A stretch of 64,000 bases of DNA, taken from Bernardetiaceae bacterium. GTDB lineage: Bacteria > Bacteroidota > Bacteroidia > Cytophagales > Thermoflexibacteraceae. Position 1 is the first letter of the stretch. The number at the start of each line of letters is the position of its first letter. The position numbers and the translations under genes are program-made. The DNA lies in contig JANWVT010000010.1 of NCBI GenBank assembly GCA_025056255.1, positions 68,662 through 132,661 on the forward strand, read 5' to 3'. Under the pieces are notes generated by a model that saw nothing but the letters and a program-made list of their open reading frames with translations, was not told the origin of the DNA and ran no database searches. This document shows positions 1,994 to 64,000 of the stretch, one piece after another.

Positions 1994-4900
1994 TTACTGC
2001 GTTTGTTCTAAATGGTCTGGTGGAATATATATGCGATTGTCGCGATAGGGAATAACAGATGAGCGGCTTCTTTGACTGAATTTACGCCGTTTTCTTCCAA
2101 AAAGTTCTGCTATGTAATTAAAACTTCGGGTGTACATCATACTTGCTCCGGTAGTAGCATTGGTACCTAGCAGCGCTGCATTAAAGGTATTGGTGATGTT
2201 TCGGCGGTACATCTTCATGCGTAGCTTGCCATCGGGGGTTAGCATGTATTCTACTGTCCAGTCGCCGGCAATACTGCTAAGGTTGGCTTGGTTTTGTACG
2301 TTGGTAAAGCTACCGTCGCGTGTGATGCGCATTCTGCCATTCATGAAGCTGTATGAAAGGCGCAACTGCATTGTATTGAGTGCATTGGCATCAAATCCGT
2401 TGAGGTCTATGTCTACTTCTAGGTTTTCATCCACTTGCGACATCCAAGCGCTAAGCTGGTTGGTAATCAGTTCGCTGAGGCTATTACCTGCCGACTGGCT
2501 AATGCCTTCAAAAGCATTTTCGGGAAGCAATTTGCGCAACATGAGCAAACTGAAAACTTGCTTTTGTAGTTCTTGCTCGTCGCCTGCTAAGCGGGCTTTA
2601 AAAGCAGCAATAGAGGTTTCCAATGAAATGGGCACGCCGCCTACTACTATGGTGCGAGGGTAGTCGAAAAATTCAATGTCGTAAGTGACCATGGGCTTGA
2701 GCAACTCTCCTGTCAGAAACAAATTAACGCGGACCGGATAGCGTCGTTTCAGTTCGGGGCGGTTGAGTGTGGTACTGTCTAATTGTGCGCGAGATAAAAT
2801 GGGGGCAAGGGATACTTTTTGGTCATAGGAGGCAGTAATGTTCATTTTGCCCTTGAACGGGTCGCCGTTCCAAGCAATACTGCTTCCTTGTGCAATCTCA
2901 AACGACTTGTTGAATAAGTTTTGGAATGTAAATGTGTAAGAGCCGCGCACAATTTCCACATCGCCAAACATGGTGAAGTCGCCTCTGGTGTCCAATTCCA
3001 TTTTGAGTTTACCACGCGCGTTACCGCGTATGATGTCGCCTGCTTTGCGGTCTAAAATAATTTCCATTTGTGCCTCGGGGGTAATTTCCAAGTTCATTAC
3101 AATAACCAACTTGGACAAATCTAATTTTTTGGTTTTCGAAAGCTCGGTTGCTATTGTATCTGCTGCCGCAACAGACTTTAACGACACAAATCGGATAAAG
3201 CTCTTTTCTTGAGCACTTGCGTATCCGTCTAAGGGCATAAAAATACGTGTACCGCGTTGGCTAATCGCATTAATCGTAATTTTCATATTTTCGGGTGGTC
3301 CGAAAATTTCCATTCTGCCTGTGGCAATGGCTGTACCGTAGTAAAGAGCATCTTCGGTTTGCTGTGTGTCCAACACTTTGAATTGGCGGAAGTCGGCTCG
3401 CATGTCAATAACAAAGTTAGTAAAGCCGTAGTGGTATATTCCGCCGTCTATGAAAGCTACATTCTGCTCGTCGTCGCGTAGGCGCAAGCGCTTTACGGCA
3501 ATGCGGTCGTCTTCAAATAGAATGCGGTCGTCGAAAAAATAAGTAGTATTGAGGTAATTTACCCTAAACCGCCCTCCTGTGATAAACAGTTCGCCAGCAA
3601 TGTGAGGGGCATCTGCCTGTCCGTACACACGCAGTTGACCTGCCGCCCGCCCTGCCATGTTAGATACAATTTCCGACAAAAAAGACTCTAATACATTGAT
3701 TTCCGTCTGTTTGAGGTCTATAAGCAGGTCTAAGGCATTGTTTGACTGTTTGTAGGTGCCTTTCAGCTGCAAGGCTTCGCGGGTGTCGTACAACATGCGT
3801 GATTCTATGGCAAGCGACTGGGTTTCTTGGTTCCACTGAATAAAGTTGCGGATTTCACCCAGTGAAAATCCCTCTAACTTCACATGGCGAGCAAACAGAA
3901 AACCGTCGGCTTGTATCTCGTTGTAAAGGTCTTTTAAAAATACTTTTCCGTCGGCTTCACCTTCTATTTTTTTGCCAATAAGGCTACTGAGCAGTTCTAT
4001 GCCAATTTTTTGGATTTCTATTTCTAAACTGGTCTGTGGATTTTCTGAGATACCTCCTTTTACACTAACAAAGCGATGTCCATCGGAAAAGTACAAGTCT
4101 TTTACTTGTATTTCGCGCCCCTGAATCATGATAGTTGCCGTGTCGGTATTTTGCCACTTTTGTTTGTTCAACACGGCAAACGAGGGGTGAAATGCTGCTA
4201 AGTAGCGCTTACCGGGCAAAAATCGGAAGTCTCCTTTAACGGTACCGTGGTCGTCGGAATGGGCTGCCTGTGCAGCTATTTGGTAGCTAATGCGGTCGCG
4301 TAGCCATTCGGCATCTATTTGCAGTTTTTGTAGTAATGTGTCAACTTGACTGCGCTCTCCTACCTGGTTTAGGTAGGCAGAGTGAAGCATCAGATTGGCG
4401 CTAATTTGGTTGGCGTCAGTAACTTTAACGGTTTGGTAGTCGGCAGTAATTTGTTGCAGGAAGAAGTTGCCATAGCGTAGGGTATCGGCTTGGAGTTGCA
4501 AGGCGAAGTCTTGTGTGATGCCGCTGCGAAACTGCCCTTGTAGGATGGTGTTGCAGGCAAGGTAAAAATCGGGCACAAAAATCTGAATGAGAGGGTTGAG
4601 GTTTTTAATTCGGATAAGGTAATCCACCTGATAAGGACTTTCTACAACTGGGGAGGGCTTCTTTTTGAGTTTCTGAATCAATTTTTGGCTGTAATACTTT
4701 TCTATTTCCTCAGAGTCGTTGCCAATGTAGAGCATGTATTCGTTTATTAGCCGTGTGAGGTCGGCTATGGTAGTAGAAGGTTTAAAGTTCCCTTCTGACT
4801 CCACATCTATCAGGTCGGAGCGGATGTAGAAACTGCGTTTGTTGCCGTTGAGTTCCGAGTGGAGTTTGAGGGTATCAAACAGCACATCTTTTTTGTCGTA

Positions 4901-6640
4901 AGCAAAATAAAAACTGTCTAAACGAATATCGCCTCGAAGGTTGTCTAAGGTTAAACCGCGAAAGTTACAGTCAATATCGGCGCGGGCAAAGGCAATTTGA
5001 TTAACAAAGTGCAGTTTTTGCAAATCGGCGCGGTCTAAGGAAGCTTTTAGCCTAATAGTGCTATCTGGTAAACTAACTTCTCCCGTGCCTTCAAATGCAA
5101 AGTTGGGGTCAGCAATTTTCAGGAATCCCGCTACTATTCCTTTTTTGAACGATACATCGGTTTGAATGTTTTTATAGGAGTAGCCGCGTAGTCCTAACTT
5201 GGCAATGTGTCCTTTTATTTCGGTTTCCATTTCATTGAGGGTGAAGCCTTTGCCCTTCATGTTTACGTGAGCATCTATGGCTCCTAGTAGGGATATATCT
5301 GCTAAGTTGCCAAGTTGGAAGTTTTCCGTAGTAACCTGTCCGCTGTAAACTTTTTGGTCTACTTTCACATTGATATCGGGTCGGACAGTTCCTATTGCTG
5401 TTTCAAACTGCCCGCGCGCTACAAAATCGTTCAGGTAGCCGACAAATTGCCCATTAAAGCGCACATCGCCCAATTTTCGCACAGTGGCAAATTGGTCTTC
5501 GGATAAAAATACTTTCAAATCCAAAGCAGACAGCCGCGAAGGACGAAATTGCAACTGCATCAAAGTTTGGTCTATGTTGGGCAAGCCGTCAAAATAAAGA
5601 TTGCCATTAATGTTGGTATTTTGACCAAAAGCAAGGCGTAAGTTGCGTATATGTAGCCTACTGAGATGTCCGTCTACGACCCCACTTAGTTGGGCACTTG
5701 TTTGCCAACTTGCCAGTGAGGGAGCAAAATGGGCTATATCGTCTGTATGCAAGGTAACAGAGTCTAATTCAGCATAAATGCGGACGCGGTTGTTGAAATC
5801 GTCCATAGCATCAGGGGTAGAGTAGGCAAGCGCCAGGCGGCGGCGCAAATAACTCTTGCCAATATGTAGGTCTAAATTGTCGAAAAAAATACCCTTGTCG
5901 CAATACACAAAAGAAGTGTTGAGGTGGTGAATATTCCAATTCAAGGTTGCCTCACGCGCCGATAAGTTACTGGCTTGCAGCAAGATAGAGTCTCGAACGC
6001 TGACAAAGTTGCGCACCTCGCCACTGATGCGGTCTAAGGTAAAGTGGTTGTAGTCAAACTCGCCTGTTCCTGTAAGGGAGTCTATTTGAGGTTGGCAGTA
6101 GCCAAAAACACAGTCTTGCAATAAGGTTTGCTCTATTACAAATCGGGAGGAAGAGGGCGTGGTGTCGGATGGGGTGCGGCTGAGTGCTTCAATGAGTTCG
6201 CTGATATTCAGCTCGCCATTTTTGCCATTAGCCACTAAGTTGAGCGTGAGTTGCGCTAATCGGGTGCGGTTCAAGATGATATCGTTGCCTTTTATGAGGG
6301 CAACAAGGTCGTAGTCCACGCTAAGTTCGGAAGCCGCAATCATTACAGCCCCGCTGCGGTCTTTGACTGCCACGCCTTTTAGTACAGCATGGTCTAACCA
6401 ACGAATAGCAATACGCTCAATATGCATTTCAAAGCCCGTCAGACGGCTTAGGTAGTGCGTAGCATAATTGCCTAACCAGGTTTGCACAGCAGGAAACTGC
6501 AAACCTAACAGTAGCAACAGCACCAAAGAAAGAACCCCGAAAACGCTGGTTACTATCGCATTTCCGATGCGACGCAGCGGGCTTTTAGGGGTTGTTTGGG
6601 TGGGCGACACCTCTGGCTGTATGCGATTATCGGCTTCCAT
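1994..6640 (-). CDS. TamB-like translocation and assembly protein (AsmA/DUF490 superfamily)
   Basis: The 1548-residue product has an N-terminal membrane anchor at about 28-52, then a very long run of beta-strand repeats with conserved short blocks, and ends with the TamB/DUF490 C-terminal domain, including GSYTFTFQNLFNKSFEIAQG and WNGDPFKGKMNITASYDQ. TamB-type proteins form a hydrophobic groove between the inner and outer membranes and are linked to lipid transport and outer-membrane protein assembly. Bacteroidota versions are usually about 1400-1700 residues, so this is full length. No Omp85/TamA partner lies next to it here. It heads the close-packed J-domain, PspA and HD genes, which fits an envelope-maintenance role. 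Confidence 0.9.
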   Translation of the reverse strand: MEADNRIQPEVSPTQTTPKSPLRRIGNAIVTSVFGVLSLVLLLLLGLQFPAVQTWLGNYATHYLSRLTGFEMHIERIAIRWLDHAVLKGVAVKDRSGAVMIAASELSVDYDLVALIKGNDIILNRTRLAQLTLNLVANGKNGELNISELIEALSRTPSDTTPSSSRFVIEQTLLQDCVFGYCQPQIDSLTGTGEFDYNHFTLDRISGEVRNFVSVRDSILLQASNLSAREATLNWNIHHLNTSFVYCDKGIFFDNLDLHIGKSYLRRRLALAYSTPDAMDDFNNRVRIYAELDSVTLHTDDIAHFAPSLASWQTSAQLSGVVDGHLSRLHIRNLRLAFGQNTNINGNLYFDGLPNIDQTLMQLQFRPSRLSALDLKVFLSEDQFATVRKLGDVRFNGQFVGYLNDFVARGQFETAIGTVRPDINVKVDQKVYSGQVTTENFQLGNLADISLLGAIDAHVNMKGKGFTLNEMETEIKGHIAKLGLRGYSYKNIQTDVSFKKGIVAGFLKIADPNFAFEGTGEVSLPDSTIRLKASLDRADLQKLHFVNQIAFARADIDCNFRGLTLDNLRGDIRLDSFYFAYDKKDVLFDTLKLHSELNGNKRSFYIRSDLIDVESEGNFKPSTTIADLTRLINEYMLYIGNDSEEIEKYYSQKLIQKLKKKPSPVVESPYQVDYLIRIKNLNPLIQIFVPDFYLACNTILQGQFRSGITQDFALQLQADTLRYGNFFLQQITADYQTVKVTDANQISANLMLHSAYLNQVGERSQVDTLLQKLQIDAEWLRDRISYQIAAQAAHSDDHGTVKGDFRFLPGKRYLAAFHPSFAVLNKQKWQNTDTATIMIQGREIQVKDLYFSDGHRFVSVKGGISENPQTSLEIEIQKIGIELLSSLIGKKIEGEADGKVFLKDLYNEIQADGFLFARHVKLEGFSLGEIRNFIQWNQETQSLAIESRMLYDTREALQLKGTYKQSNNALDLLIDLKQTEINVLESFLSEIVSNMAGRAAGQLRVYGQADAPHIAGELFITGGRFRVNYLNTTYFFDDRILFEDDRIAVKRLRLRDDEQNVAFIDGGIYHYGFTNFVIDMRADFRQFKVLDTQQTEDALYYGTAIATGRMEIFGPPENMKITINAISQRGTRIFMPLDGYASAQEKSFIRFVSLKSVAAADTIATELSKTKKLDLSKLVIVMNLEITPEAQMEIILDRKAGDIIRGNARGKLKMELDTRGDFTMFGDVEIVRGSYTFTFQNLFNKSFEIAQGSSIAWNGDPFKGKMNITASYDQKVSLAPILSRAQLDSTTLNRPELKRRYPVRVNLFLTGELLKPMVTYDIEFFDYPRTIVVGGVPISLETSIAAFKARLAGDEQELQKQVFSLLMLRKLLPENAFEGISQSAGNSLSELITNQLSAWMSQVDENLEVDIDLNGFDANALNTMQLRLSYSFMNGRMRITRDGSFTNVQNQANLSSIAGDWTVEYMLTPDGKLRMKMYRRNITNTFNAALLGTNATTGASMMYTRSFNYIAELFGRKRRKFSQRSRSSVIPYRDNRIYIPPDHLEQTQ

Positions 6641-6734
6641 GTTTTTATTTGTTTTGCCCCAAATACTTCAACAAAAATACGCTTTGCATATTTTGCTTAA
6701 TAGCTCAGGGAAGGTACTAACTGCCTTCTGTTGG

Positions 6735-8411
6735 TCAGCTTGGCGACTGGAGAAATCTCCATGCTTGTTCATTATCAGCTTGTTGTGTTGTTATTTCTAA
6801 CAATATAGGCACGCCTTCATTGCCAAAAAACTTTGGTAGTACTGCTTCAACCTGCTCTTTTGTGTTTGCATAAAGATACGCAAAACCTGCCTCTTCGGCT
6901 GCAGAGCGAGCAGAAAGTCGCTGTTGGGTTACAAAATATTCGTCGGTTTCTGCTAAGTTGCGCGGTCCGTCTATCATGCGAAAAATGCCTCCTCCGCCGT
7001 TGTTGAGTACTACAATTCTCAGGTTGGGCAGGGAGTAGTTGTGCCATAGTGCATTTCGGTCGTATAAGAAGGCTACGTCGCCTACCAGCAATATGTGTAG
7101 CTTGTTGGGGGAGGCTAATGCGTGCCCCACTGCTGTACTAACACACCCGTCTATACCACTGGTGCCGCGATTGCAAAAAACCTCAACGGTTTGCGTGTGG
7201 CGCAGCCCAATAGCTTGTGCATACCGTACTGGCATAGAGTTAGCCAAGTGCAATGTAGCTCTTTGGGGCAGTGCCTGCATCAGTCGGTAAACAGCCAAAG
7301 GTTCGCTTAGGGGGGCAGTTGCCTGCAGTTGTGCTAAACGACGGTCGCTGCGCGCTGCATCAAATAATGGAAAAGGCAACCAGTAATCAGTTGTGGGGCG
7401 GTCTTTCCACTTTTGAGATAAGGTTTGAAAAAACAGCACTGGTGAGGTTCTGATAATGCGGGTTAAAGACTGGAACACATCGGGTACATGACCTGCTTCT
7501 TGAATATGCCAGTGTTCGAGGGGGGGATACTGACGCAGCCGATTTTTCAACACCTTAGAAAGCACCGATTGCCCAAAAGTAATAAGCAAATCGGGCGAGT
7601 GCCATATGGGCTGTTGCAGCCCTATCTCATAACGGAAAACATTGTTTCGGGCAGTATGTATATTAGCAAAAATATCTCCTAACAGCGCAAACGGTAACTG
7701 TTCAATAGCTGCTACTAAAGAAGGCTCATAGCGATTTTGCCCTGCTACAAGTAATATTTTCGGTGTTTTTGATACTTTTTCAATAATGGAATGCCATATA
7801 TCTTCAGGCAATTGCATCTGTCCGCGTTGTTCTTCAAATAATCGGAGGTTGGGGGAGAAGGTTAAGTCGTCTTCGGGTTTAGGATAAAATGGCTCTCGGA
7901 AGGGCATATTGATATGGACCGGACCAGCTGGATAAGCTGTACTGGTATGGATAGCCTCGCACATAGTTCGGCGAATAGCCCATAAGGCATCGGGATGGAT
8001 GTAGTCTGCTGGTATTTCATAGGCGGCTTTGCAGTGCTGTCCGTACATATTGCGTTGGTGAATGGTCTGTCCGTCTGCCTGATTGACCCACTCAGGCGGG
8101 CGGTCTGCTGTGAGCAATAGCAATGGTACTTGGCTGAAGTAGGCTTCTGCTACGGCGGGGGCATAATTAAGTCCTGCCGAGCCAGAGGTGCAAACGAGGG
8201 CTACTGGCTTGCCCGATTGTTGTGCCATTCCAAGTGCTATAAAAGCGGCAGCGCGCTCATCGCTAATGCTGTAACATTGTATCTTAGGGTGTCGAACAAA
8301 AGCAATGGTAAGCGGTGCATTGCGCGAACCCGGCGAAATAACCGCTTGCTGCACTCCCAAATGGGCACAAATAGTAGCTATGTCTAAAATAGGGAAATGA
8401 GAGTATCGCAT
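6735..8411 (-). CDS. menD: 2-succinyl-5-enolpyruvyl-6-hydroxy-3-cyclohexene-1-carboxylate synthase
   Basis: The 558 residues match the usual MenD length. The protein shows SPGSRNAPL near residues 27-35, the thiamine diphosphate site with RGTSGIDGC and LLVGDVAFLYDRNAL, and NNGGGGIFRMIDG near the C terminus. MenD adds succinic semialdehyde (from 2-oxoglutarate) to isochorismate in menaquinone synthesis, using thiamine diphosphate and Mg2+. Menaquinone is the usual quinone of Bacteroidota and would serve the NADH dehydrogenase whose NuoA subunit is at 18981. No other men gene is in the window. It lies 94 bases upstream of tamB on the same strand and diverges from apaG. Confidence 0.95.
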   Translation of the reverse strand: MRYSHFPILDIATICAHLGVQQAVISPGSRNAPLTIAFVRHPKIQCYSISDERAAAFIALGMAQQSGKPVALVCTSGSAGLNYAPAVAEAYFSQVPLLLLTADRPPEWVNQADGQTIHQRNMYGQHCKAAYEIPADYIHPDALWAIRRTMCEAIHTSTAYPAGPVHINMPFREPFYPKPEDDLTFSPNLRLFEEQRGQMQLPEDIWHSIIEKVSKTPKILLVAGQNRYEPSLVAAIEQLPFALLGDIFANIHTARNNVFRYEIGLQQPIWHSPDLLITFGQSVLSKVLKNRLRQYPPLEHWHIQEAGHVPDVFQSLTRIIRTSPVLFFQTLSQKWKDRPTTDYWLPFPLFDAARSDRRLAQLQATAPLSEPLAVYRLMQALPQRATLHLANSMPVRYAQAIGLRHTQTVEVFCNRGTSGIDGCVSTAVGHALASPNKLHILLVGDVAFLYDRNALWHNYSLPNLRIVVLNNGGGGIFRMIDGPRNLAETDEYFVTQQRLSARSAAEEAGFAYLYANTKEQVEAVLPKFFGNEGVPILLEITTQQADNEQAWRFLQSPS

Positions 8412-8594
8412 GTGCCAACAATAGGTTTTGGCATTCCTTCCAAAAAAACTTTGTAGATTGATTTACAAGTGTAATACAATTGCGCAACTTGTATAAAATA
8501 ATTAATTCTTTTCGCTGTTATTTATTTAACTTTTGTTAGAACAAACTTGCCAATCATTCCAAAGCGTTTTTTTCATCAAAACTACACCTAAATT

Positions 8595-8981
8595 ATGGTA
8601 ACCGAAGTAACTCACGGCGTTAAAGTAACTGTTAGAGCGGAGTATAAAAGTGAGTATTCGCGCCCGATGCAGCATCATCATGTTTTTACCTACCATGTTA
8701 CTATTGAAAACAACAGTGAATACACTGTTCAACTGATGCGGCGTCATTGGGAAATTTATGAGGGGAATGGTACAGTAATGCAAGTGGATGGAGAAGGAGT
8801 GATTGGCGAACAGCCAATTTTGGCGCCGGGTGAAGTGCACGAATATGCTTCTGGCTGCCATCTGAAAACCGGTATTGGCAAAATGTCGGGCTACTATACC
8901 ATGGAACGGTTGATGGACGGTAAGGAGTTTCTTGTTACAATCCCAGAATTCACGCTGATAGCCTCGTACTTGTGCAATTAA
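8595..8981 (+). CDS. apaG: ApaG family protein (DUF525)
   Basis: The 128-residue protein matches ApaG over its whole length: an immunoglobulin-like beta sandwich with VTIENNSEYTVQLMRRHW at about 36-53, the loop VDGEGVIGEQPILAPGE at about 64-80 and the GxMSGYYTM block near 99-108. ApaG proteins have been linked genetically to cobalt/magnesium resistance and to ApaH, but their biochemical role is poorly defined. It is transcribed divergently from menD with 183 bases between them. It is the only complete gene before the phosphatase remnant at 9066. Confidence 0.9.
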   Translation: MVTEVTHGVKVTVRAEYKSEYSRPMQHHHVFTYHVTIENNSEYTVQLMRRHWEIYEGNGTVMQVDGEGVIGEQPILAPGEVHEYASGCHLKTGIGKMSGYYTMERLMDGKEFLVTIPEFTLIASYLCN

Positions 8982-9065
8982 TTTGACAGATTGGGGTTTT
9001 GCTTGCTCAGATAGCCCCAAGAGTCTTGTGAACTTATTAGTTTTATTTGGATACTTGGCAAGCAA

Positions 9066-9422
9066 CTTTACTATGCCGGAGCCAAACTCAGCTTGTTTTT
9101 GCTTCGCGCTGGCGAGTTGCAAATTGTTCCAGCCGACCGCCGCTCGATTGGCAGCAGAAAGCACTTAGGCTTACCATTCCAAGAGCATCTACTCGAAATA
9201 GCTCCCAATACGATGCTCTACATGCTCTCCGACGGTTACGCCGACCAGTTTGGTGGCGAACACAATCGCAAAATTGGTAGCCGGCAAGTAGAAGCCCTAT
9301 TGCAAAAAATTCATGCGTTTGACTGCACCCTTCAAAAAAACGTATTGCACAACTTTCTTGCTAAGTGGAAAGGCAATCAGCGGCAAATAGACGATATCTC
9401 TGTTTTAGGCATCCGCCTGTAA
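9066..9422 (+). pseudogene. 3' remnant of a SpoIIE/PP2C-type phosphatase gene
   Basis: Reading in the frame of the stop at 9420-9422, homology to SpoIIE-domain serine phosphatases starts at YYAGAKLSLFLLRAGEL (from about 9069) and runs through MLYMLSDGYADQFGGE and FLAKWKGNQRQIDDISVLGI to the stop. This is only the last 115 residues or so of the catalytic domain. The phosphatase core before it, and the TPR, GAF or transmembrane part that Bacteroidota versions carry, are absent. The same frame hits a stop at 9012-9014, just before the homology. A short ORF with an internal ATG at 9093 exists but would lack the first metal-binding aspartates. I call it a truncated, inactive gene. Confidence 0.7.
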
Positions 9423-9498
9423 GCAAGCGAGTTGAAATATGTTAAATCCGAAACCTTCGCAACTTGCTAAGTGTATTTTTGTAGTAAAATGCATTGTA

Positions 9499-10713
9499 AT
9501 GAAATTCGCTTGTTTGCGCACTCTTCTCAGTTTGATAATTTTTAGTTGGATGATGACAAGCGTTGTATCTACAACGCGCGCCCAGCAACTGCCTCACATA
9601 GACAGCGTTGACATGCTACTGACCAATGTGGCTATTCAGGTAGAATGCACGCAGGCTATCAACGACATGTATAATTTCAAATTTCGACAGGCGGAAAGCA
9701 TCTTCCAATGGTTGCGGCGTACTTATCCGGAGCATCCTTTACCTTATTTTCTGATGGGGCTGAGCCAATGGTGGCGCATCATGCCCAATCCGGACAATAC
9801 ACAGTACGACGAACGCTTTTTGGCTTATTTAGACACCGCTATTGAAAAGGGAGAAAAGTGGTTAGATAGAGGCAAGCCAAAGCAGAAAATAGAAGCAGCC
9901 TTCTTTTTGGCAGCAGCATGGGGCTTTAAGGGCAGGCTCTACTCCGACCGTAAGCAATGGGCAAAAGCAACTTTTGCAGGCAAACGCGCACTAAAATACA
10001 TGGAACTGGCTGCTGACCAAAACGACCTTAGCCCCGAACTGCTTTTTGGCGATGGCTTGTACAACTACTATTCTATTTGGGTGCCAGAGAACTATCCAGT
10101 TTTAAAGCCAGTGTTGTGGTTTTTTAAAAAAGGCGACAAAGCGCTTGGTATTGCACAATTGGAAAAAGTAGTAGCTGATGCCTTTTATACCAAAACCGAA
10201 GCTATGAACTTTTTGATGCGCATCTATGCAGATGAAAACATGCCTGAAAAATCTTTTGAAACAGCACGCTATCTGCACAAAACCTTTCCCGACAATCCTT
10301 ATTTTCACCGTTACTACGCTCGTCTGCTTTATCAGCGTGGGCAGTTTTATGAGTTAGAATCGGTTGCCAAAAGTATTATTGAAAAAATTGACCGAGGCGA
10401 ACCCGGCTATGAGGAAGTCAGCGGACGATATGCAAGCTTTTACTTGGCGCATCTGTACCGCGTAGCCTACCGCGACAAGCAACGTGCCAAACAATATTAC
10501 GAACGCACAGTTGAATTTGCCGAGCGCTTGCAGGCTTATGAAGCAGGTTATTATTTGCATGCCCTTGCCGAGTTGGCACAAATAGCAGATGCCGACAAGG
10601 ACATTTTGCAAGCCAAAAAGTACTATCAGAAAATTGTTGAACACGCCGAAAAAAAACATCCTACCTACAAAGAAGCCAAAGAATACTTGCAAAAGCATCG
10701 CAAAGTAAAATAA
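9499..10713 (+). CDS. secreted TPR-repeat protein
   Basis: I choose the ATG at 9499 (404 residues) because it gives a clean signal peptide, MKFACLRTLLSLIIFSWMM followed by a cut near TRAQQ; an in-frame upstream ATG at 9439 would put 20 extra residues before it. The rest is helical with repeated tetratricopeptide-like pairs, clearest at about 45-75 (FRQAESIFQWLRRTYPEHPL), 255-300 and 345-400. It probably acts in the periplasm as a protein-binding scaffold. It lies 11 bases upstream of moaA and may share a transcript with it, but there is no evident functional link. No specific family recognised. Confidence 0.8.
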   Translation: MKFACLRTLLSLIIFSWMMTSVVSTTRAQQLPHIDSVDMLLTNVAIQVECTQAINDMYNFKFRQAESIFQWLRRTYPEHPLPYFLMGLSQWWRIMPNPDNTQYDERFLAYLDTAIEKGEKWLDRGKPKQKIEAAFFLAAAWGFKGRLYSDRKQWAKATFAGKRALKYMELAADQNDLSPELLFGDGLYNYYSIWVPENYPVLKPVLWFFKKGDKALGIAQLEKVVADAFYTKTEAMNFLMRIYADENMPEKSFETARYLHKTFPDNPYFHRYYARLLYQRGQFYELESVAKSIIEKIDRGEPGYEEVSGRYASFYLAHLYRVAYRDKQRAKQYYERTVEFAERLQAYEAGYYLHALAELAQIADADKDILQAKKYYQKIVEHAEKKHPTYKEAKEYLQKHRKVK

Positions 10714-29619: not shown

Positions 29620-29717
29620 ACTTTTCCCAAAAAATCAGTACATTGCTGAAAACTAAACCGGCAAGTAAACAGTTTAACTTACGATTTATCAGCTTATCTA
29701 CAACGCTAATCGTCGGT

Positions 29718-30554
29718 ATGTTTGACTTGTTCACTAAAACAACACTCAAGTGCAGTGAAATTGTAACCAAAAGTTACAGCACTTCCTTTTCATTAGGCAT
29801 TCGCATGTTCGATGAGTCGTTGCATAAACCTATTTATGCCATTTATGGATTTGTTCGCTATGCCGATGAAATTGTAGATACCTTTCACGACCATGATAAA
29901 AAAAACTTGTTAGACCGGTTCAGGGCCGATACCTACGCTGCTATTGAGCAAAAGCTGAGCCTTAATCCCATTCTTCACTCTTTCCAATGGGTAGTCAATC
30001 GCTACCAAATCGAGCGAGAGCTCATCGATGCTTTCTTACACAGCATGGAAATGGATTTGTATTTCCATGAGTACAACGACGAACGATATCAAGAATACAT
30101 TTACGGCTCTGCCGAAGTAGTTGGGCTGATGTGCCTGCGCGTGTTTTGCGACGGCGACAATGAGATGTACCAACGATTGAAGCCGGCGGCATGTAGCTTA
30201 GGCTCGGCTTTTCAAAAAGTTAACTTTTTGCGCGACATGAAAAGCGACTACCATGAGCGCGGTCGTGTGTATTTCCCCGGGGTGGACTATAATCGCTTCG
30301 ATGGCGATGCCAAACGCGCCATTGAAGCCGATATACAGAAAGATTTTGACAATGCTTACAAAGGCATTGTACAACTGCCTAAAAAAGCACGCTTGGGCGT
30401 TTACCTCGCTTATGTGTACTACCTGCGCTTATTTAGAAAAATTCAGGCTGCTGCTCCCGCTAAGGTACTGTCGGAGCGCATTCGCGTATCAGACAAACGC
30501 AAGATTTATCTGTTGGCTGAGAGTTATTTCAAGCATCAGTTGAACTATATCTGA
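29718..30554 (+). CDS. crtB: phytoene/squalene synthase family protein
   Basis: I start at the ATG 29718 (278 residues); the frame upstream of it runs back over 25 codons without an ATG. The two aspartate-rich motifs that bind Mg-diphosphate are present: YADEIVDTFHD (D50 and D54) and NFLRDMKSDYHERGRVYFP near 168-186. It condenses two geranylgeranyl diphosphates to phytoene, the step before the adjacent CrtI. Linked to crtI with a 98-base gap. Squalene synthase is the alternative, but the neighbour decides for carotenoids. Confidence 0.92.
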   Translation: MFDLFTKTTLKCSEIVTKSYSTSFSLGIRMFDESLHKPIYAIYGFVRYADEIVDTFHDHDKKNLLDRFRADTYAAIEQKLSLNPILHSFQWVVNRYQIERELIDAFLHSMEMDLYFHEYNDERYQEYIYGSAEVVGLMCLRVFCDGDNEMYQRLKPAACSLGSAFQKVNFLRDMKSDYHERGRVYFPGVDYNRFDGDAKRAIEADIQKDFDNAYKGIVQLPKKARLGVYLAYVYYLRLFRKIQAAAPAKVLSERIRVSDKRKIYLLAESYFKHQLNYI

Positions 30555-30702
30555 CAAGTAAATTAACGCCGAGTTTTTGATAATTAGCCGAAAAAGTGCA
30601 TTTTTTATTTTCCCCTTTTCAAAGAAAATGCCTGCTGTGGTGAGTTGTTTGCGAAGAAATGGACATTAGCGGCGTATAGTGGCGGCACGATAACCACGTT
30701 CT

Positions 30703-30735
30703 TGTTCATGTCCTTGTGAATAATTCCTTACATTT
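30703..30735 (+). promoter_or_regulatory. possible promoter before the Avd-like remnant
   Basis: TTG at 30703-30705 and TACATTTG at 30728-30735, 22 bases apart, fit the Bacteroidota pattern. A transcript would start near 30742 and cover the asparagine-rich tail and the Avd-like sequence. Confidence 0.35.
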
Positions 30736-30787
30736 GCCTATGTCTGCAAAAACAACAATTTGACTCTGTATTGTTGCTAAGGTAGCG

Positions 30788-30844
30788 TAAGAACAAAAAC
30801 GACAACATGTATGGCGTAGTTTGTCAGCAATTTTCCGAAAGATA
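30788..30844 (+). pseudogene. possible 3' end of a retroelement variable-protein gene
   Basis: The frame ending in TAG at 30842-30844 reads KNKNDNMYGVVCQQFSER. Variable proteins of diversity-generating retroelements often end in an asparagine-rich stretch followed by a GFRVV-like block, so this looks like such a tail missing two residues. The frame is closed by a stop at 30782. It lies directly upstream of the Avd-like sequence, where a target gene would end. The match is short and tentative. Confidence 0.25.
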
Positions 30845-30848
30845 GACT

Positions 30849-31131
30849 GTGTGTCATGGTTGTACAACGTATGATTTGCTCAAACACTTTATGAGCCATG
30901 TGTTGCGACGCATTCCGCGCGACCAACGCTTTGCCCTTGGTGCAAGGATGCAAAGCCTGATAACAGAGGTCATGGAAATGCTCACGGAAGCCTATTACAG
31001 TCCGCCGCTTGCAAAAGTAAATATCAGACTGGAAATATTGCGACACTACCTGCGCCTGTGTTATGAAATAGGCTAACTACAACTCGGCGAAATACAAACA
31101 CCTCAGCCAGCTTACCGACGAAATCGGGGGC
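30849..31131 (+). pseudogene. Avd-like four-helix-bundle gene, frameshifted
   Basis: The first frame (30849-31073) reads TYDLLKHFMSHVLRRIPRDQ, then LGARMQSLITEVMEMLTEAYY and LRHYLRLCYEI, which matches the Avd accessory protein of diversity-generating retroelements. That frame stops at 31074. Shifting by one base at about 31072 continues the family pattern as NYNSAKYKHLSQLTDEIGG, where Avd proteins normally end GGW. After 31131 the sequence is antisense to the caspase-like gene. The first Met codon is also missing (only GTG at 30849). Avd proteins bind the reverse transcriptase and template RNA. None of those partners is visible, so this is a relic. A general four-helix-bundle (S23-like) protein is the alternative. 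Confidence 0.6.
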
Positions 31132-31812
31132 ACGCAGCAGCGCCAGTTTAAATTGTTGGGCAAATGCCGAAGGGCTTGGCGTGGTGTTTTCTCCACCGGA
31201 GGTCATATACAGACGCGATTTGCTACTCAATGCCGTGCGGATAATCTTTTGAACAGCTTGCTCTTGCAAATAGGCGCCTTCGCCGGGGCGGTCAAAAAAG
31301 CCATCGCTTTTGTGCGTGCGCACTTGCCCGAAAGTACCGCTATGGCAGGCATCTAACATGACTAACACATGCAAGCACGGGATGGCGTTAATCAGGTCGC
31401 GCAGTTCGCTGTAAGCAATGTAGCTGCTGCCTGTTACGTCGTCTTTTTTGCCTTCTTTGGGTACGAAATAGCCTCTTTGCAGGGTTCCTTTCCGCATGTA
31501 ACCGTGCCCCGAAAAGTAAATGAGCAGTTGGGCGTCGGGGGCTTTCAGGGCTGCTTTGCTTGCGTATTCTTCCAGTTTGGCAAGTATTTTTTCTTTGGTA
31601 GCATCGGGTACTACTTCGGTAACAAAGCCGTAATCATCGCGTAGGATTTGGGCTATTTGTTGCGCTTCTTGTACGGGTTGACCCAGTGGCGACCAGTAAT
31701 CGTAATTATTGACAGTAAAAAAGAGGGCAAAGTCTTTTCCTTGCCTGTTGGGCGGAGCAACTATGTTGGCAGCCATTGTTATCAGCAGTAGCCAGACAAA
31801 AACGGTGCGCAT
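31024..31812 (-). CDS. secreted caspase-like (C14) peptidase, C terminus replaced
   Basis: The 262-residue product has a signal peptide (1-18) and a p20 caspase fold with the catalytic dyad intact: SGHG at 101-104 (His 103) and DACHSG at 154-159 (Cys 156). Up to about residue 222 (SPSAFAQQF) it follows bacterial caspase-family proteins. After that the sequence is antisense to the Avd-like remnant and no longer resembles the family, whose domain normally continues another 40-60 residues. Thus the 3' end has been lost by recombination near 31131. Bacterial caspase-like proteins cut after Arg or Lys and some act in regulated cell death; activity here is doubtful. Confidence 0.75.
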   Translation of the reverse strand: MRTVFVWLLLITMAANIVAPPNRQGKDFALFFTVNNYDYWSPLGQPVQEAQQIAQILRDDYGFVTEVVPDATKEKILAKLEEYASKAALKAPDAQLLIYFSGHGYMRKGTLQRGYFVPKEGKKDDVTGSSYIAYSELRDLINAIPCLHVLVMLDACHSGTFGQVRTHKSDGFFDRPGEGAYLQEQAVQKIIRTALSSKSRLYMTSGGENTTPSPSAFAQQFKLALLRAPDFVGKLAEVFVFRRVVVSLFHNTGAGSVAIFPV

Positions 31813-32393: not shown

Positions 32394-33464
32394 TTACTTG
32401 CGTGTCCACTGTCCCACTTCCCATAACTTCAACGTTTTATCCCTACTTCCGGAGAGGATATACCGACCATCGGGGGACAAAGCAATGGCAGTAACCCCTT
32501 TGGAGTGTTCTTTTATTGTTTTTAAGCATGTGCCCGTGTTGATATCCCATAACTTCACCGTTTTATCTTCGCTTCCCGAAAGAGCATATCGCCCGTCAGG
32601 AGAGAAGGCTACGGAAGTAACATTACTGCTATGCCCTTCCATGGTTTTTAAGCATGCGCTCATATGCACCTCCCATAACTTTAGCGTGTTATCCCAACTG
32701 CCGGAGAGGGCATACCGTCCATCGGGAGAGAAAGCTACGGAAAGTACCCAACCACTATGCCCTTCCATGGTTTGCAAACAGGTGCCGGTGCTCAGTTCCC
32801 ATAACTTCATGGTGTTATCCCAGCTTCCAGACAAGGCATGCCGACCATCAGGAGAAAAAGCTACAGAGGTAATTCCCTCCGTATGCCCTTTCATGGTTTG
32901 TAAACAGGCGCCAGTACTTACCTCCCATAATTTCAACGTGTTATCAACACTTCCCGACAAGGCATACCGACCATCGGGGGAGAAGGCTACGGTATAAATC
33001 GGACCGCCATGTCCTTCCATGGTTTGCAAACAGGTGCCGGTGCTTAGTTCCCATAACTTCAATGTTTTATCCCAACTTCCTGACAAAGCATACCGACCGT
33101 TAGGGGAGAAAGATACCGCACGCACAACAGCATCATGCCCTTCCATTGTTTTGAGGCATGTATCCGATTCTGCATAGATAACAATGGCTGGCATCGCCTT
33201 TGTAGCAAACTTGCTTTTTTCAGAATGGACAGACCAATATTTCTTAGCTATGCTTGCTACCGTCGGTGCTTTTTCTGCTAACGGCTTACACACAACGCAT
33301 GGGCACATCACCAACAACAAGATAATAGCAACAATAACGCTCTTTGATTTATTGGTAGCTTTCTCCTCTGTCCCTGCTGCGGTTACTACTGTTTCAAGCT
33401 GTTCTGATAGTCTGTTTTGGACTTTTTTGTTGCGGAAGTCAGCTACTAAATAAAAGCGCTCCAT
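32394..33464 (-). CDS. membrane-anchored WD40-repeat protein
   Basis: The start may be the ATG at 33464 (356 residues) or 33491 (365). A hydrophobic segment KSVIVAIILLLVMCPCVVC about 40 residues from the start is likely a membrane anchor. The rest is six successive 42-residue WD40 repeats of the form CLxTMEGHxxxVxSVAFSPDGRYALSGSxDxTLKLWE. They are nearly identical in protein and DNA, which points to recent duplication or gene conversion. Six blades rather than seven, plus an open frame after the stop, suggest a possibly shortened C terminus. The protein would be a beta-propeller docking platform. It is 581 bases upstream of the caspase-like gene on the same strand; both protein types often occur together. 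Confidence 0.85.
   Translation of the reverse strand: MERFYLVADFRNKKVQNRLSEQLETVVTAAGTEEKATNKSKSVIVAIILLLVMCPCVVCKPLAEKAPTVASIAKKYWSVHSEKSKFATKAMPAIVIYAESDTCLKTMEGHDAVVRAVSFSPNGRYALSGSWDKTLKLWELSTGTCLQTMEGHGGPIYTVAFSPDGRYALSGSVDNTLKLWEVSTGACLQTMKGHTEGITSVAFSPDGRHALSGSWDNTMKLWELSTGTCLQTMEGHSGWVLSVAFSPDGRYALSGSWDNTLKLWEVHMSACLKTMEGHSSNVTSVAFSPDGRYALSGSEDKTVKLWDINTGTCLKTIKEHSKGVTAIALSPDGRYILSGSRDKTLKLWEVGQWTRK
32403..33158 (-). repeat. six tandem 126-base coding repeats (WD40 units)
   Basis: Within the WD40 gene, a 126-base unit recurs six times with the recurrent words for SFSPDGRYALSGS and LKLWE. The period matches one propeller blade of 42 residues. High DNA identity between units makes copy-number change by slippage or recombination likely. 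It is a coding repeat, not a CRISPR array. Confidence 0.8.
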
Positions 33465-33633
33465 AGCAAAACATAGTATTCTGTAAATCAATTACTTAAA
33501 AAGTAAATGTTTGTTGTTCGTAGTTTGCGCCACTTGCACCATACCTTTCTGCATTGAAAAGCTCAGTTGCTTTTTTGGTTATAGCTCTACCCAATTAAAA
33601 CAAGTTTGGCTACGCAGCGTCCTTTTTGTTATT

Positions 33634-63817: not shown

Positions 63818-64000
63818 AACTTTCCAACTCGTTAGGAAAATTTACATTTTTTACATCTTCAATATAACGACAAAAGGCGTCGGTCATAATAGTATGTAGG
63901 TCGGCATATCGGCGCAAAAATCGCGGACGAAACTCATTAGTAATGCCCAACATATCATGCACTACTAATACTTGCCCGTCTACATGCGGACCGGCGCCAA
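63810..64000 (-). CDS. panB: 3-methyl-2-oxobutanoate hydroxymethyltransferase (5' part cut by window edge)
   Basis: Only the last 62 codons are inside the window. They read [39 protein letters not shown] and [13 protein letters not shown] before the TAA at 63810-63812. The GxGxxxDGQVLVxHDMLG block and the tail are those of PanB, which adds a hydroxymethyl group to 2-oxoisovalerate in pantothenate synthesis. The start lies beyond the right edge. A small membrane protein gene overlaps its end. Confidence 0.88.

Follow-up and report, generated by a model that had tools for sequence, protein, structure and literature searches.

A decayed avd gene joined tail to tail with a truncated caspase gene: the probable remnant of a diversity-generating retroelement in a Bernardetiaceae bacterium

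A living diversity-generating retroelement (DGR) uses the accessory protein Avd and a reverse transcriptase (RT) to copy a template repeat, random errors being made at adenines; the error-bearing copy is then written into a target gene at its variable end. Two published accounts describe related systems. One of them reports FGE domains (there called FGS) coupled to DGRs, and caspase-like domains that act as effectors in conflict systems of the same kinds (PMC7159879). The other, on Thiohalocapsa PB-PSB1, describes degenerate DGR loci whose key machinery is missing or pseudogenized, and one DGR target with a caspase-like CHAT domain (PMC10907252). Our subject is a short piece of a 64-kb stretch of DNA, the whole of which we call the window, where the fragment of an avd gene meets a caspase gene that has lost its end. 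The explanation we favor overall, with a probability of roughly 0.65, is that a dead DGR left its remnant here and that the convergent gene, once a caspase–FGE fusion, would have been its target.

An avd gene of the DGR type, and what is missing around it

The avd remnant occupies two frames of the forward strand. The first, at 30846..31076, has a possible GTG start at 30849 and a TAA stop at 31074-31076; by itself it matches NF033474, the NCBIfam model for the DGR protein Avd (43.4 bits, E=3.3e-11), as well as PHROG 3206, Avd protein of DGR (E=2.2e-7), and Pfam bAvd (E=3.9e-7). One base over, at 31075-31131, Avd similarity picks up again, reading NYNSAKYKHLSQLTDEIGG. This second piece, delimited by profile and alignment, lacks the C-terminal end of its relatives and scores 9.1 bits alone on a DGR-Avd profile. 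Read as one protein, the two frames reach 42.4 bits on Pfam bAvd, above the cut-off of 40, and 54.8 bits on NF033474 (E=9.7e-15), which is below a curated cut-off of 80 bits that applies to the full protein and would fit a truncated, diverged copy. Three or four residues are absent mid-protein when the window Avd is aligned to its relatives. A preliminary description, made from the letters alone, had read an Avd-like frame at 30849 that breaks at about 31072 and resumes one base over, a reading that NF033474 and Pfam bAvd bear out.

The closest outside matches of the protein are the Avds of a Microcystis plasmid (33% identity) and a Nostoc plasmid (31%), and identity was at most 33% to every DGR Avd compared. 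A class sample of 394 other genomes held weak matches in two. Two matches from a PDB sequence search with the window protein (E 0.4 and 0.79) we regard as chance, and scans of genome contigs with the first Avd frame and of viral contigs with an Avd alignment gave no result.

Avd-type proteins come both from DGRs and as stand-alone bAvds, and we made a profile of each, from 10 DGR-labelled Avds and 11 stand-alone bAvds, respectively. The window Avd scored 61.3 bits on the DGR-Avd profile vs 3.9 bits on the bAvd profile. In a tree of the same 10 DGR-labelled and 11 bAvd rows, the bAvds fell on one side and the DGR Avds with the window Avd on the other, at 100/99 support (the trees omit bAvd candidates with an in-frame stop, L007, L015 and L016; L005, L010 and L018 were unused). 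An RT match lies near nine of the 10 DGR-labelled rows, the exception being the Microcystis row, which was labelled by annotation. By sequence, the window avd is of the DGR type and not of the stand-alone bAvd/S23 type, which profile scores and tree alike reject. Matches to NF033474 at E<=0.001 occur in 31 of 98 genomes, the window's own included, and one is above the cut-off. Of 20 Avd loci, one is that of the window. The two highest-scoring of the rest (99 and 61.6 bits) have a DGR-type RT next to them; around the remaining 17, all below 38 bits, none was seen within the stretch of up to 1.5 kb on each side. Another orphan avd in the class, apparently intact and of the DGR type, sits at about 6805-7047 of locus L093 (contig C60 of genome G098), where three DGR RT queries found no match in about 7 kb either side.

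The window avd is broken at about 31073 and has lost the C-terminal end present in its relatives. The assembly it belongs to comprises 3.39 Mb in 107 contigs and is rated 100% complete. Across those 3.39 Mb no RVT_1 match was found at E<=0.001, and a Nostoc DGR RT used as query gave a best match of only E=0.455. There was likewise no second Avd in the assembly at E<=0.001, and 30703-31135 recurred only as 31-base scraps. Of the marks of a functional DGR, namely an RT, a template/variable repeat pair and an intact accessory gene, none was found in the assembly. The earlier claims that this is the relict of a DGR avd and that template and RT are lost or elsewhere are supported: the first on NF033474, Pfam bAvd, the DGR-vs-bAvd profiles and the tree, the second with neither an RT nor a template repeat found in the assembly. 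We regard the window avd as very probably the remnant of a dead DGR, and as a DGR it should do nothing.

Of the two results that would together have refuted the preliminary description, one turned up: the protein is not of the S23 type, but the three congeners searched have no Avd (0/3), no RVT_1 match (0/3) and not the same gene order beside the left neighbor. That neighbor is a crtB-like squalene/phytoene synthase gene on the forward strand (29643..30554; SQS_PSY E=9.9e-50) that lies outside the element. Homology to the congeners beside it ends at about 30550, and there they carry different genes that also differ from one another.

The nearest complete DGR that we have seen is in G008, a member of another genus of the same family (L001, L044). 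Like the window it has an Avd, about 29-30% identical to ours, and unlike the window it is complete, with 16 of 16 target/template differences at template adenines. Its template, used as a query, was unmatched in the window's genome and in the three congeners. Its target differs from a caspase–FGE fusion, being a 230-aa ORF that yielded an FGE domain alone and no sign of a caspase domain. Contig C77 of G008 carries a second repeat, which was rejected as a target of this template, with only 3 of 16 differences at template adenines. A second RT lies on the same contig, at 107177-108043 (L055, L101), followed closely downstream by a G008-like template-type repeat; the G008 genome yielded no second Avd.

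A caspase gene cut short by the same junction

Facing avd from the reverse strand is a truncated caspase gene, a 262-aa ORF at 31024..31812 (Peptidase_C14 E=2.6e-17). Its ortholog in the congener G001 is a 606-aa caspase–FGE fusion, with a caspase domain at residues 28-178 and an FGE-sulfatase domain at 373-603, and over residues 1-232 the two share 81% identity. Only the caspase domain is present in the window gene; the FGE half of the ortholog, the kind of domain that DGRs commonly diversify, is absent, and with it the domain pair by which we recognize a caspase–FGE target. The last 30 or so residues of its ORF come from antisense avd DNA, and past about 31132 all that the second avd frame offers is the antisense of the caspase gene. 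By blastn, homology to the G001 gene can be followed at the nucleotide level to 31133, and weak matches reach about 31124; Avd similarity ends at 31131, at the caspase homology limit. One junction, placed at 31117..31134 by the limits of Avd similarity and nucleotide homology, cuts short both genes.

The caspase part is constrained, with a dN/dS of about 0.12 over 226 codons against G001, so its truncation is probably young relative to the split from that congener. The stub retains SGHG and DACHSG motifs, which we take to be catalytic; it may or may not still be made. Beside it, at 32394-33491 on the reverse strand, is a gene for a WD40-type repeat protein with several near-identical repeats, named by eye. 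In G001 the caspase–FGE gene and crtB lie on separate contigs, and the flanks of the caspase–FGE gene are scattered in the window's genome.

Could such a gene have served a DGR? With the G001 protein as query, at least 80 loci were obtained. Among the matches listed, a fused caspase–FGE ORF is present in 11 of the 80 loci, and a DGR-like RT accompanies three of these 11 vs nine of the 69 others. The other eight of the 11, again among the matches listed, have no DGR-like RT in the stretch covered, a weak absence given that several stretches are short. In all three loci with a DGR-like RT, target and template differ mostly at template adenines, in 16/16 and 19/20 cases in L120, in 20/21 in L132, and in 15/18 and 14/16 in L144; both L120 targets, both L144 targets and the single L132 target carry Pfam caspase and FGE domains. 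On the evidence of these repeats, DGRs at three distant loci genuinely use caspase–FGE fusions as targets.

Two of these loci matter for the geometry of the window. L120 (Candidatus Anammoxibacter OFTM134, contig JAIQZO010000108) carries at 2007-9894 a DGR with two caspase–FGE targets, Avd, RT and template, with Avd sitting between target and RT. It differs from the window in being intact and in having both targets on the strand of avd and RT. L144 (Desulfobacterales HSG16) has, at 2108-8278, two caspase–FGE targets in a convergent arrangement around one RT and template: one of the genes faces RT and template tail to tail, whereas the other precedes an HRDC-domain gene and then the RT, all on the strand of the RT. 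The convergent target is arranged as our model has it for the window, where the caspase gene faces avd. L144 is unlike the window in having an HRDC-domain accessory gene and no detectable Avd. An Avd together with a convergent caspase–FGE target in one locus was seen in none of the loci examined.

How the junction may have arisen

The preferred reading, a dead DGR whose target was the caspase–FGE gene, would start from an ancestral layout in which avd, RT and template followed one another and faced an FGE–caspase gene, which is the L144 layout with avd placed before the RT. A single deletion that began late in avd and ended in the caspase linker would have removed RT, template and FGE domain together, leaving an avd that lacks its end and abuts, tail to tail, a caspase without its FGE half. 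No inversion would be required for the junction; avd would have acquired its frame break separately, through decay. L120 (the Avd) and L144 (the convergent target) each lend a feature to the model. We put it at even odds that the caspase–FGE gene was the target of this DGR and was lost by one such deletion. A bolder version, in which a DGR-diversified, hypermutating immune-type caspase–FGE receptor lost its sensor domain, template and RT in one deletion and left a sensor-less caspase gene in the lineage, we consider doubtful. If the caspase was the target, a diversified, putatively death-inducing protein has lost its sensing half, and that would bear on how such systems get discarded and on whether the leftover protease stays tame.

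Several findings count against the caspase–FGE gene as target. Neither an Avd nor an RVT_1 match was found in any of the three congeners, and the tail of the G001 protein is encoded without the NNC/NNT codon pattern expected in a live variable repeat. The convergent L144 lacks a detectable Avd, and the Avd-bearing L120 has its targets on the strand of the RT. To these can be added the eight of 11 caspase–FGE loci, among the matches listed, that are without a DGR-like RT, and the G008 target without a caspase domain.

The rival that survives best, though we think it unlikely, keeps the DGR relic and gives it a target unrelated to the caspase, a chance rearrangement having brought the avd fragment into a caspase–FGE gene. 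In its favor, the G001 gene lies elsewhere in its genome with no DGR nearby or anywhere in G001, so caspase–FGE genes of this genus do exist without DGRs. The arithmetic, which is post hoc, speaks against it: landing at random within the 3.39 Mb, an avd relic would hit this gene of about 1.8 kb some 0.05% of the time, and one or another of about six caspase or FGE genes some 0.3% of the time.

The preliminary description had placed the target elsewhere, as an asparagine-rich variable tail at 30740..30844 on the forward strand, directly upstream of avd. Such a tail would be compatible with the caspase as a second target, and a target directly 5' of avd is a real layout, known from Nostoc and Fischerella plasmids and phage BalMu-1. 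KNKNDNMYGVVCQQFSER is indeed what the frame that ends at 30844 spells, and by eye its NDNMYGVVC resembles NDNIGFRIVC of a Nostoc DGR target. The asparagine-rich sequence is present; as a variable-protein tail it is indistinguishable from background. A frameshift-tolerant profile built from 11 real target/template tails scores 16.5 at the claimed tail, and at least 16.5 at 59 places of the 64 kb (33 on the forward strand and 26 on the reverse, the claimed tail included), whereas the two true template-type G008 repeats score about 95 on the profile made without G008 rows. Within the 300-nt region the score peaks at 16.7 (30680-30727), a level that two of 60 shuffles reached. The score is also noisy, as 63895-63936 reaches 29.4, above the claimed tail, with no FGE gene in the open frames there. 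When the region 30740-30844 was aligned as DNA with seven template/variable repeats, it was equalled or beaten by 7, 17, 30, 101, 122, 199 and 205 of 422 control tiles; the best of these comparisons, at just seven tiles, speaks for the tail, but after correction for seven queries it is not significant. A plasmid DNA search with 30703-30848 gave two short matches at E=5, and the listed open frames upstream hold no FGE gene body. That the target ended in this tail strikes us as quite improbable, and the convergent truncated caspase, whose ortholog in G001 is a caspase–FGE fusion, is the better candidate for a lost target.

Two small features of this upstream region can be recorded here. Positions 30734-30764 match 42370-42400 of contig C52 in the same genome (31 bases, 87%, E 0.002), both intergenic, and we rejected the C52 copy as a template, since it is intergenic there and has no template pattern. 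Near that match, at 30729, is a TAnnTTTG element, presumably a Bacteroidota promoter motif.

An assembly chimera, with the avd and caspase pieces lying apart in the actual genome or a sequencing error behind the frame break, is very improbable. The junction is known from a single 107-contig assembly and was found in no other genome; against this, it sits well inside a contig of 136,906 bases, and the congeners also vary among themselves beside the crtB-like gene. Scarcely credible is a working stand-alone four-helix protein of the bAvd/S23 type, possibly made by programmed frameshifting: the matching Pfam model carries a bAvd-like name, and Avd-type genes without a nearby RT exist (G098, the Microcystis plasmid), but the window protein groups with DGR Avds (61 vs 4 bits, split 100/99) and lacks its C-terminal end, the second frame continuing antisense through the caspase gene, and we rejected a programmed frameshift as the protein end is missing in any case.

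The locus beside other decayed DGRs

What the locus displays is a DGR after its loss, and it points to a type of target, a Peptidase_C14 caspase fused to FGE, that has adenine-biased variation in three distant loci. A partial parallel is plasmid p1FD4 of Microcystis aeruginosa FD4 (L090), the best plasmid match of the window Avd at 33%, in which an FGE target is followed by an annotated avd and three DGR RT queries matched nothing within the 10-kb stretch; it is possibly another DGR that lost its RT. Unlike in the window, its avd is intact and annotated, and its target has no caspase annotation. In the same plasmid (2857-7899), an IS630-family transposase lies downstream of the FGE target and avd.

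The degenerate loci of Thiohalocapsa PB-PSB1, as that account presents them, differ from the window in that their genome still has intact DGRs and that transposons are implicated (PMC10907252). The window, set against the same account, has no RT or template that we could find in its assembly, and the neighbor of its avd is a Peptidase_C14 caspase truncated ahead of the FGE half rather than a target with a CHAT domain. DGR decay has thus already been described, and the window adds one more decayed DGR.
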